A DNA stretch of 64,000 bases from Marinobacterium marinum (GTDB lineage: Bacteria > Pseudomonadota > Gammaproteobacteria > Pseudomonadales > Balneatricaceae), in NCBI RefSeq assembly GCF_013868415.1, contig NZ_JACEMT010000031.1, positions 1-64,000 on the forward strand, given 5' to 3'. A program made the position numbers and the translations under genes. The notes under the pieces were generated by a model, which was not told the origin of the DNA, did not search any database, and saw only the letters and a program-made list of their open reading frames with translations. Each line of letters begins with the position of its first letter. The stretch's first letter is position 1. Shown piece after piece: positions 10,545 through 15,102 of the stretch.

Positions 10545-11558
10545 ATGGATAAAAACAGAATATTTTGGCCCGATTTTACTCGAGCAGTAGCCATACTACT
10601 TGTAATTATTATTCACATAAGTGCCCCTGTTGTAGTTAGCTTAAAAGAAGTTGAAACCAGTAGCTGGTTATGGGCTAATGCTTTGGACTCAATTGCAAGA
10701 ATTTCTGTTCCTTTATTTTTCATGATATCAGGATTTTTACTTCTCAATAAAGATATAGACATAATAAAATCCATAAAGCGAGCCAATAATCGAATACTGC
10801 TCCCTATGATATTTTGGTCTTTCTTCTACATCAGTTATTCAGCATATGAATACGGTATCGAATATTATTTAAATTATAATTATATGGGGCTATTAAAAAC
10901 TCCTGCCCAATATCACCTTTGGTTTTTTTATGATATGTTGATATTGTATATAACTATACCATTCATGCGCGCTATTATAGAAAGAAAATTAACCATATAT
11001 TTCATCTTTCTTTGTTTTTTAAAAGAATTATTTTTATTTTTACCTGTAGATAATTACTTCGAGTTTTCTCCTGTTTCTACGTTTGCAGGATACATGCTTG
11101 CAGGTCATTACATTGGAAATCTTAATAAAATCAAAAAATGGACATATAAAGCATCAGCTTTCATATTTTTTATTTTATTTTTTGTTACATTCGTAAGAAC
11201 ATATCAACTTTCATTCGAAGCAGGAACTCTAGTACAAGACTACTATTCTTATACATCACCAAACATTATAATCATGTCAATATGTGCTTTTTTTATAATG
11301 AGCCGTATCAAAATTGATACAAAATGGATAAAATACCCTATAATAATTATAAGTCGATATTCATTAGGAATATATGGTATCCATGTTTTCGTTATCCATT
11401 TACTTTACACCGGGAAATTTGGTTTCAAAATTTCATCTATGGAGAATAACGGACATATATTTTCATTATTGGAAACTTTTATTTTAGTTCTAATAATTTC
11501 ATTATTTACCGTTATTCTAATAAGCTTAATAAAACCAATGAGAAAAATTATAAGTTAG
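10545..11558 (+). CDS. Acyltransferase 3 family membrane protein (WecH/OafA-like)
   Basis: A 337-residue polytopic membrane protein of the acyltransferase 3 family, which moves acetyl or other acyl groups onto sugars of surface polysaccharides. The first helix carries R13 and H24 in the family's R-X10-H pattern (FTRAVAILLVIIIH), followed by the conserved RISVPLFFMISGFLL. About ten hydrophobic helices can be seen. An AAAGGA ribosome site lies upstream. Base composition is strikingly AT-rich compared with both flanks, suggesting acquisition by transfer. It lies between the chpA terminator and IS30 remains, and may serve the polysaccharide genes beyond the IS. The substrate cannot be told. Confidence 0.85.
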   Translation: MDKNRIFWPDFTRAVAILLVIIIHISAPVVVSLKEVETSSWLWANALDSIARISVPLFFMISGFLLLNKDIDIIKSIKRANNRILLPMIFWSFFYISYSAYEYGIEYYLNYNYMGLLKTPAQYHLWFFYDMLILYITIPFMRAIIERKLTIYFIFLCFLKELFLFLPVDNYFEFSPVSTFAGYMLAGHYIGNLNKIKKWTYKASAFIFFILFFVTFVRTYQLSFEAGTLVQDYYSYTSPNIIIMSICAFFIMSRIKIDTKWIKYPIIIISRYSLGIYGIHVFVIHLLYTGKFGFKISSMENNGHIFSLLETFILVLIISLFTVILISLIKPMRKIIS

Positions 11559-11577
11559 CTGTAGATACTAAGGATGT

Positions 11578-11603
11578 CGCGAATTCAACTCCGAATTGCG
11601 ACA
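11578..11603. repeat. Outer inverted repeat of the IS30 relic
   Basis: This 26-base sequence equals the inverted right end of the intact IS30 (12802-12827) at 25 of 26 positions. It marks the surviving terminal end, downstream of the transposase stop, of an older IS30-type element on the minus strand. Confidence 0.85.
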
Positions 11604-11743
11604 TCCTGAAGGTATTCATGAAAATACAATTTCAGGCTAACTGAACCCGAGGCATTTCCGAAGCCTGATATTTAACTTTTTTTCTGCCTTGCGGACACCC
11701 TCGTCAGTGATTTTCCGCAGATCCGTAGCTTTCGGAAGGTACT
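11604..11743 (-). pseudogene. IS30-type transposase relic, C-terminal fragment
   Basis: Translated on the minus strand this reads LPKATDLRKITDEG, then VRKAEKKLNIRLRKCLGF, aligning closely with the C-terminal end of the intact IS30 transposase (IPKGTDLRLITDED, VRWAEKRLNLRPRKCLGF). A TAG replaces the Gln codon after the CLGF motif and a one-base insertion follows, so it is dead. It continues in frame with the second piece at 12828-12899 once the intact IS30 and one CT duplicate are removed. Confidence 0.85.
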
Positions 11744-11769
11744 CGGGAATTCAGATAATAAGTGCGACA
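11744..11769. repeat. IS30 left inverted repeat
   Basis: Begins CGGGAATTCA and ends AAGTGCGACA. It matches the inverted right repeat at about 20 of 26 positions; most mismatches are clustered in the middle. Confidence 0.82.
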
Positions 11770-11848
11770 CTCATGGTTGAACGGCGAGAGGTGGCCAACT
11801 GCCGAAGGTGGTACGCTTCAGCTCGCCAAAGTCAAAGTAAGTATCACC

Positions 11849-12796
11849 ATGAGTTATCAGCAGTTGACCGAGGGGAAACGATACCAGATATCGGCTCTCC
11901 TTACGCAGGGATATTCGCCGGCAGCGATCGCTACTGTAGTTGAAGTTCATCGCTCCACAGTCTACCGGGAGATGAAGCGTAACAGTCATGACGGGGTGTA
12001 TGAGCCTGAGGAGGCGCATGCCAGAAGCCGCTCACGTCGAGTCATGGCACGCAAATACAGAGTGCCGGAGCAAACCGTCATGTATGTGGAGCTGGCGTTG
12101 TCCTGGCACTGGAGTCCGGAACAGGTCAGCGGTATCGGCAAGCTCATTGGTCTGCCGGTGAGCCATGAGTGGATATACCGTCATGTCGCTGCCGAGAAGG
12201 CCCGTGGCGGCAAGCTCTACAAGACATTGCGCCAAGGACACAAACGGTACCGCAAGGGCAGCAACAGCAAGCGTGCGGTCATCCCGGAGCCGATTTCGAT
12301 CGACGATCGTCCGGCCATCGTGGACACGCGGGGGCGCTTTGGTGACTGGGAGGTCGATACCGTTCTGGGCAGGCATGGTAGCGGTGCGTTGGTCACGTTG
12401 GCGGAGCGCAAGAGTCGCCTGTATCTGGTCCGCAGGGTCGACGCCAAGCGGGCTACGGATGTGCGGGATGCGATCATCGATATGCTCATGCCCTATGCCG
12501 ACCATGTGCATACAATCACGGCGGACAACGGCAGCGAGTTCGTCGAACACAAGGCCATAGCGGAAGCGCTGGGGGCGGAGTTCTACTTTGCTCACCCGTA
12601 CTCCTCATGGGAACGCGGACTGAACGAGAACTTCAATGGGCTGCTGCGGCAGTTCATCCCGAAGGGTACGGATCTGAGGCTGATTACGGATGAAGATGTG
12701 CGGTGGGCAGAGAAGAGGTTAAACCTGAGGCCGCGTAAATGCCTCGGATTCAGGCAGCCCGAAATGGTGTTCCAAGAATACCTTCAGGCTGCATAG
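11849..12796 (+). CDS. IS30 family transposase
   Basis: A 315-residue DDE transposase. The start at MSYQQLTEGKRYQIS matches the usual IS30 beginning; the frame is open 29 codons further upstream but that part overlaps the terminal repeat region. An N-terminal helix-turn-helix is seen in YSPAAIATVVEVHRSTVYREMKRN. The catalytic core shows GDWEVDTVLG (first Asp), TADNGSEF (second Asp) and SSWERGLNENFNGLLRQF (Glu). The C-terminal end, RKCLGFRQPEMVF, is typical of the family. No stop or frameshift is visible, so the enzyme may be active. Confidence 0.94.
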   Translation: MSYQQLTEGKRYQISALLTQGYSPAAIATVVEVHRSTVYREMKRNSHDGVYEPEEAHARSRSRRVMARKYRVPEQTVMYVELALSWHWSPEQVSGIGKLIGLPVSHEWIYRHVAAEKARGGKLYKTLRQGHKRYRKGSNSKRAVIPEPISIDDRPAIVDTRGRFGDWEVDTVLGRHGSGALVTLAERKSRLYLVRRVDAKRATDVRDAIIDMLMPYADHVHTITADNGSEFVEHKAIAEALGAEFYFAHPYSSWERGLNENFNGLLRQFIPKGTDLRLITDEDVRWAEKRLNLRPRKCLGFRQPEMVFQEYLQAA

Positions 12797-12801
12797 GCGG
12801 G

Positions 12802-12827
12802 TGTCGCACTTCGGAGTTGAATTCGCG
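12802..12827. repeat. IS30 right inverted repeat
   Basis: Begins TGTCGCACTT and ends GAATTCGCG, six bases after the transposase stop codon. It is nearly identical (25 of 26, inverted) to the relic's own end at 11578-11603, which shows the two elements are close relatives. Confidence 0.85.
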
Positions 12828-12899
12828 CTGGCGTAGCAGGCCGCTAAAGCTCTCGCTCAGCCCATGCTCCCAGAGGGATTGACACATAAAAATGAACAC
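12828..12899 (-). pseudogene. IS30-type transposase relic, second fragment
   Basis: On the minus strand this encodes QSLWEHGLSESFSGLLRQ, matching YSSWERGLNENFNGLLRQ around the catalytic Glu of the intact transposase; about five residues further upstream (VFIFM) also align loosely. It is the other half of the gene interrupted by the intact IS30. No remains of the N-terminal three quarters are seen, because the next gene stops 26 bp further on. Confidence 0.78.
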
Positions 12900-12924
12900 T
12901 ATCCGCAGTGTACCATTTTATGGT

Positions 12925-15102
12925 TCATATATTTTTAAAAAAGCTTCTGATTATTCTAGGAACCTTTTTACTAGCTCTTAGTTTATTATTTGTAAACTTA
13001 CAAAAATCTTTTAAAACATCCAAGTATGAACTTCCACTTCTCACAATGAGAGATCCTTGAAAAGAAAGGCCATCAGCATCTTCATTTTCTCTAGATAGTG
13101 GAAAGTAAATTTCTGACAAATTAATATCAGGGAAAAAAGCCCTGTATTCTAACAGCATACTTACACTATTTTTTCGGAGTGATCTTGAGACGTCTTCTCT
13201 TATCTTGAGTAAAGTCTGTCGGTCAGCATCAATACTGGCTAAAGTAGCCAGCATGTCGGCCCCATCCTTGGCAATCAGCCAACCGTTTTCACCCTCTTTG
13301 ATCCGATCGGCGAAAGCGCCAACATCGGTGGCTACAACAGGCAAACCGGCGGCCCAGAGTTCGCTTAGTGTATAGCTGAAAGTCTCGGGAACCTGTGACA
13401 GCAACAAACCCAGATCAGGACTGAACTGGCGCAGCAGCTCTCCCAGCTGCGCGCGTTCATAGCGCTCCACGACCGTCACGGAAGGCGAAGACTGAAAAGA
13501 CGCACCGCTGGTGCCGCAACCCAGCAACACCACATGATAATGTTCGATCAGCTCTCGCCAAACGACTTTCAGCAGCCCCCCTCCCTTATGGGCTTCCAGG
13601 CTGCCCAGAATAACGATGGTCAACTTTTCACCGGCAGGCCGCACATCGTCTATTTGGGCAATCGGAGCCAGTGAGGCCAGCAAGTCTTGGCCAAGACCAT
13701 GCTCGATCACATGAATGGGCTCGTGCATGCGGGGAAAGAGCGAATGAACCCTGTCTACAACCGATACACTGGGCGCAATCTGGATAATTTCGCCTTCGTT
13801 CAACAAAGCGGCGAAGTGATGACGAAGACGAGCCCAGTGCTCAACCCCTTCATGCAGGAAAAAACGCTCAGACGGATTTTCCTTCCAACACTGCTTTAAC
13901 CGGGTGCTGTTGCAGCTCGTACAGGGGTGCTCGAAGGTCGCCGTGATAAATGGACACACCGGATAGAAATCATGCCAAACATACAATGTCGGCACCGCCG
14001 TTCGTAAACAATCCAGCGAATGCCCAATGACTGATGAGACGATAACGGTATCGGGACACCAGTGCTGAATAATCTCGTCCATGATCGAACGGTACTGAAC
14101 ATGCGTCACCAGAGTAGACAGTATGGGCAGGTTCAAGGACCATTCACGAATCGGCACATCACTGGTAGGTGACTCGAACAACGCCAGCTTGTAGCCAAAG
14201 GCATCCCAGTCGCCAATAGGACGCAAGACCAGATTACGCACCCCCGTATCGGCAGCGGCAAAATCCTCGACCCAGCGGCCCAGCCCCCCTCCCCAATTAT
14301 GGCTGATATGTAAACGCACCGGCTGGTTAACGACAGAAGTGGCCTCGGGTTGCTGACAGCGACGGCTTAAATCGGTCAAGGCATGGCGCAACCCGGTAAA
14401 TGGATGGCGCCGCACGAGCAGCTGTTCCCAGGTTGCAGGCAGCCCGGCAGGAGCCCGCTGCGGCGGCCAGTCCGCATCATCCACATAGAGACGGTCCGTC
14501 AGGACCATGCCCACACCCTTGTCCTGCAGTACCTGATCCACAGCAACCGAATTCGCTTCTCGATATGCGCTGACCACCTCAGCATCCATCACCGCGACAT
14601 GGCCCGCCAGCACCGGTACATCCATCAGCTGTCCACTGGCATAGCTGCTGAGCCACTGGTCCATCGCCTGCACATCCAGCCCCGGTTGATGATCGGACGA
14701 CAAAAACGCACTGGTAAACGGGTGCCGGACGGAAAGAGGCAGTAGAATATTCGCTGCCGATTCTCGCTTGATACTCAACAACCGCCGCATAAAATGCGGC
14801 GGTAATCCGGCACTGGCAGGTACAAATAGATACTCCTGCCGATTCGGAACATGCTGATTCACATATTCCAGCAAGCATGACCAATAGTTATCCCGCAACG
14901 CCGCCAGAGCAACGTCCGGTGCGCTGCCCAGTCGGTGCAGCGTTACCGCCTCACAAGCCTGTACCCCGGCCTCATCAGCAGCCGAAAGTTCGGAGGCCAG
15001 CAAGAGATGCAGTTCAACATTCTGAAACCGCTCCAATCCCAGCGCGGTCAGGCACTCGCTCAGGCGTCCGGCAACGTCCGCAATAACAACAACAGCCAGC
15101 AC
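12925..15102 (-). CDS. Two-domain glycosyltransferase (GT4-type C-terminal domain)
   Basis: A 725-residue putative cytoplasmic glycosyltransferase. The C-terminal half (about 330-640) is a GT-B fold of the glycosyltransferase 1/4 group: LTIVILGSLEAHKGGGLLK, then LGLLLSQVPETFSYTLSELW and LPVVATDVGAFADRIKEGENGWL, including the nucleotide-sugar-binding glutamate region. The N-terminal 230 residues resemble a GT-A type domain but lack an obvious DXD motif that I trust. The GTG start follows GGTGA and lies 4 bp after the previous stop. The last roughly 280 bp are far more AT-rich than the rest of the gene. Donor and acceptor are unknown; the neighbours point to surface polysaccharide. Confidence 0.82.
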   Translation of the reverse strand: MLAVVVIADVAGRLSECLTALGLERFQNVELHLLLASELSAADEAGVQACEAVTLHRLGSAPDVALAALRDNYWSCLLEYVNQHVPNRQEYLFVPASAGLPPHFMRRLLSIKRESAANILLPLSVRHPFTSAFLSSDHQPGLDVQAMDQWLSSYASGQLMDVPVLAGHVAVMDAEVVSAYREANSVAVDQVLQDKGVGMVLTDRLYVDDADWPPQRAPAGLPATWEQLLVRRHPFTGLRHALTDLSRRCQQPEATSVVNQPVRLHISHNWGGGLGRWVEDFAAADTGVRNLVLRPIGDWDAFGYKLALFESPTSDVPIREWSLNLPILSTLVTHVQYRSIMDEIIQHWCPDTVIVSSVIGHSLDCLRTAVPTLYVWHDFYPVCPFITATFEHPCTSCNSTRLKQCWKENPSERFFLHEGVEHWARLRHHFAALLNEGEIIQIAPSVSVVDRVHSLFPRMHEPIHVIEHGLGQDLLASLAPIAQIDDVRPAGEKLTIVILGSLEAHKGGGLLKVVWRELIEHYHVVLLGCGTSGASFQSSPSVTVVERYERAQLGELLRQFSPDLGLLLSQVPETFSYTLSELWAAGLPVVATDVGAFADRIKEGENGWLIAKDGADMLATLASIDADRQTLLKIREDVSRSLRKNSVSMLLEYRAFFPDINLSEIYFPLSRENEDADGLSFQGSLIVRSGSSYLDVLKDFCKFTNNKLRASKKVPRIIRSFFKNI

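Follow-up and report, generated by a model that had tools for sequence, protein, structure and literature searches.

In Marinobacterium marinum, an intact IS30-family insertion sequence lies within the remains of an older copy from the same family. We consider it very likely that this arrangement arose by an ordinary, hot-spot-type insertion of an element of one subtype (type A) into the decayed remnant of an element of another subtype (type B), lying between two convergent genes. The DNA analysed here, which we call the window, is the 64-kb start of contig C18 (94,736 bases) in a Marinobacterium draft genome of 3.28 Mb in 55 contigs. Coordinates of the features are collected in Table 1.

Results

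Table 1. Features of the nested IS30-family locus, in window coordinates.
Feature	Position	Strand	Basis or remark
Acyltransferase-like gene	10545-11558	+	converges on relic
Relic of type B IS30-family element, distal piece	11578-11743	-	element positions 908-1084
Surviving terminal inverted repeat of relic	11578-11603	-	25/26 with intact right end
Target duplication CT, left copy	11742-11743	.	read directly and by script
Intact IS30-family element, type A, 1084 bp	11744-12827	+	end match, 2-bp duplication
Left terminal inverted repeat, intact element	11744-11769	+	end comparison
IS30-family transposase ORF, 344 aa	11762-12796	+	NCBIfam transpos_IS30
Right terminal inverted repeat, intact element	12802-12827	-	end comparison
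Target duplication CT, right copy	12828-12829	.	read directly and by script
Relic of type B element, proximal piece, 5' side lost	12828-12876	-	element positions 860-909; 12872 against uninterrupted relative
Glycosyltransferase-like gene	12925-15102	-	converges on relic from other side

An earlier note on this DNA had described an intact IS30 with a CT target duplication, and this is confirmed. The transposase ORF scores 314 bits against NCBIfam transpos_IS30 (E 8.7e-94, cut-off 80), with the Pfam domain HTH_38 over its cut-off and rve slightly under; the true start of the protein may be the ATG at 11849. The two 26-bp ends are identical at 20 of 26 positions, in keeping with the inverted repeats of about 26 bp that mark the family, and the element is bounded by the short duplication CT. 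Target duplications in the IS30 family range from 2 to 3 bp, and 28 of 33 related two-ended copies carry one of these lengths (3 bp in 19, 2 bp in nine), with a single base in one copy and no duplication in four. The 97% identical copy in M. weihaiense has 2 bp (AC). Taken alone, a 2-bp duplication says little, as it would arise by chance once in 16 and 3 bp is the length seen in most of the 33 related copies.

At the DNA level, the element is present in one full copy in its own genome, where it otherwise matches only the relic and 46 bp left over from an IS30-type right end (C38:40834-40879), with 91% identity to the intact copy. A second IS30-family ORF lies elsewhere in this genome (C17:19823-20647; 289.6 bits, above the family cut-off), and an IS66-family transposase ORF occupies positions 31-1824 of the window.

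The sequences on both sides of the intact element are adjacent parts of one IS30 copy on the opposite strand, as had been proposed, so that the intact element interrupts the 3' end of the relic in the opposite orientation. The matches of the left and right flanks on the element overlap only in the 2-bp duplication, and 0 of 500 dinucleotide shuffles reached the alignment score of either flank (the right-flank test used the 60 bases adjoining the intact element). The right piece is short, with 37 of 50 columns identical, and one might suppose that the flanks are not IS30-derived and match by chance. We give this explanation next to no credence, because the shuffles speak against it, because the right piece alone matches an IS30 transposase at the protein level (25 aa, 56%, E 1.8e-4), and because 39 of its 44 bases are identical to an uninterrupted copy in a relative, directly adjoining the match of the left piece. 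The relic belongs to the IS30 family by transposase homology and an IS30-type end, a placement that concerns a 3' fragment without a complete gene: about 210 bp remain, roughly the final fifth of its original length.

The relic's own 26-base end, reported earlier, was confirmed, as were the TAG and the frameshift (+1) in its coding sequence; the list of damage had been incomplete, however, with a further 12-bp loss across the old stop region. A restorable frame had also been described, and the two pieces do join gap-free against the uninterrupted copy, but the frame so restored is only that of a C-terminal fragment. Homology of the proximal piece had been taken to reach 12899; it stops at 12872 when compared with the uninterrupted relative, or at 12876 when compared with the intact element.

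The relic tip, together with the bases just outside it, forms a near-perfect hairpin at 11571-11607 (exact arms of 10 nt; z -6.4; 0 of 200 shuffles), and its seven mirrored outer bases are the longest such run among 115 element ends. Both the missing 12 bp and a C-to-A substitution of the relic bring the hairpin arms closer to each other in sequence, as a quasi-palindrome template switch would do. No intrinsic terminator was listed at this hairpin.

An uninterrupted type B copy is found in M. iners, a member of the same genus (G004, contig C45), and both relic pieces are contiguous there. Identity to this copy amounts to 143 of 176 columns for the left piece and 182 of 221 for the joined relic, with no gap at the junction, versus 164 of 226 columns between the joined relic and the intact element. 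As the relic is closer to the M. iners copy than to the intact element, it represents a different subtype, type B; types A and B are separated by 62 differences in 405 positions. Judged by these comparisons, the intact type A element is not simply a descendant of the type B relic. The order of events, namely an older copy, its decay and a younger insertion, is secure, because the two pieces are contiguous in an uninterrupted copy from another genome of the genus. This agrees with the order given in the earlier note, which had named a relative with non-contiguous relic pieces as grounds for refutation; that test is passed for the element, not for this locus.

The same note had called for a search of related strains for the relic and the empty site. 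An uninterrupted relative of the relic was found in M. iners; a screen of 116 family genomes turned up no strain with an empty site, as the two neighbour genes occur together in their own genome only (a protein-level search of the 116 found the glycosyltransferase in four and the acyltransferase in two). A DNA-level search with the neighbour genes recovered no syntenic locus in the genus, and the stretch 12870-12960 had only one other match in eight genus genomes, of 22 bp at E 0.07. Among 390 order genomes searched at E 1e-40, four gave a match, all previously found.

With a draft assembly in many contigs, and a 2-bp duplication that could be due to chance, the arrangement might instead stem from recombination of two IS30 copies or from an assembly join. 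We regard this as highly improbable. The element and the relic are each single in the genome at the DNA level, besides the 46-bp end remnant; the contig that carries them is long; and the relic is broken exactly at the duplicated CT, its two pieces being colinear in the relative.

As to the setting, G+C content falls to 27-33% between 10550 and 11599 (300-base windows), compared with 50-60% further out, which suggests a foreign origin for the acyltransferase region. More broadly, A+T-rich stretches of 27-39% G+C flank the relic, at 10545-11558 and from 12925 to about 13200, in surroundings of 50-60%, and are possibly foreign surface-polysaccharide DNA.

In the account given in PMC9333248, IS30 inserts either at hot spots, which are nearly palindromic, non-IR targets with a 2-bp duplication, or beside its own IRs. 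We modelled the target preference of the present group from the outer flanks of element ends. The first model used three positions and 76 unique flanks, 74 after removal of the window's two; outside the tip, these 74 favour T at -8 (42 flanks), A at -7 (39) and G at -6 (29). The half-sites of the window insertion are AAG and TAC, and its site ranks best of 212 relic positions and, among 62,874 positions across the window, within the top 0.13%. A second model, built on five positions of 111 flanks with those of a nested M. iners case also removed, again ranks the site best, here of 209 relic positions (top 0.44%). The same preference, though weaker, appears in 39 ISAs2-type flanks from two Aeromonas records outside the first model (p 7e-5). 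These figures carry the caveats that the motif positions were chosen on flanks including the window's two, that paired flanks from a single copy are not independent, and that the pooled elements extend down to about 50% protein identity. The site has the character of a hot spot, with a nearly palindromic non-IR target and a short duplication, under a model taken from this element group and not from E. coli IS30.

The note had gone further, suggesting that the insertion targeted a related element. Attraction of the element to the relic as a fellow IS30 sequence, through IR-targeting or some other recognition of related sequence, seems to us very unlikely. Insertion beside its own IRs is documented for IS30 (PMC9333248), but here the element entered the relic at a distance of 166 bp from the surviving end, and we rejected IR-targeting because, as described in that paper, it puts IS30 directly next to an IR. 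Nor is attraction needed, as ordinary preference accounts for the site.

Other nested insertions bear on attraction as well. A survey of 115 flanks against 39 IS30-family ORFs and the window transposase (one read-through ORF excluded) found protein matches outside the tip in four: two in the window, one in M. iners (C35) and a weak one in G011. In M. iners, one type-B-like element appears to have entered another close to its 3' end, making a 3-bp duplication, a case pieced together from two contig ends (C35 and C30) and not from one contiguous stretch, its C30 side being detected at the DNA level. The site ranks 23rd of 365 positions (top 4.6%) under the second model and in the top 12.5% under the first, and since this fit is only modest, the motif explains that case poorly. 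In G011 (C39, about 1677-1868), an IS30-type right end adjoins sequence similar to the N-terminal region of a distant IS30 transposase; the match to IS30 protein is weak (E 1.6e-5), the left end of the copy is missing, and no Pfam family was found for the 57-aa piece at E up to 1. An M. iners flank on C11 was rejected as a nested case, because the ORF concerned extends out of the element itself. Nesting in IS30-family sequence therefore stands at three cases among at most about 82 sampled insertions (115 flanks, 33 two-ended copies). This count can be cited for attraction, but it neither shows nor excludes it.

Also on the side of attraction, three of six elements examined, all more distant (L007/G006, L084 and L093), contain 17 to 22 target-like sites where about 10 are expected. 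Type A, with 8-9, and ISAs2, with 9-13, nevertheless come close to the 10.4 expected, as does the type B piece of 405 bp, with 2 or 6 versus 3.6, so that a general excess of such sites in elements was not established. The broader idea that IS30/ISAs2-type elements favour relatives through features of their own coding sequences rather than their ends, with younger subtypes disabling older ones, we hold to be just as improbable as attraction at this locus.

Discussion

We propose a model in which a type B IS30-family element would first have come to lie between the convergent acyltransferase-like and glycosyltransferase-like genes and would then have decayed, mostly by deletion, until only the present part of its right end was left. 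A different, still intact type A element would later have entered this remnant in the opposite orientation, at a palindromic target of the hot-spot type, duplicating 2 bp. Members of the IS30 family move by copy-out-paste-in, via a circle with joined ends, and the type A element would presumably have taken the same route. The remnant itself may have been merely a harmless place in which to insert.

The type A element also occurs elsewhere in the genus. Copies of this same element in M. weihaiense A346 and M. iners DSM 11526 are 97% identical to it, but they occupy other loci and, by flank tests, are not nested in IS30 sequence. ISAs2, an IS30-family element of Aeromonas and enterobacterial plasmids, is like type A in its length of 1084 bp, its similar ends and its DNA (about 75% identical over the whole element), and its target preference is related to that of this group but weaker. 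The two are set apart by 25% DNA divergence and by their duplications, which are mostly 3 bp in ISAs2 copies and 2 bp in the window copy. E. coli IS30 belongs to the same family and, in the account of PMC9333248, likewise duplicates 2 bp when it inserts at nearly palindromic targets other than IRs. That account also has E. coli IS30 carrying out IR-targeting, whereas the window insertion occurred without it, and the target motif reported here comes from flanks of the Marinobacterium/ISAs2 group.

The general picture of IS30 biology is unchanged by these results. The locus is a further case in which a member of a known IS family has made a nested insertion, and a clean example of an insertion sequence that landed in the remains of another. 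Beyond this, it yields a short and testable target preference for IS30 elements of the Marinobacterium/ISAs2 group.
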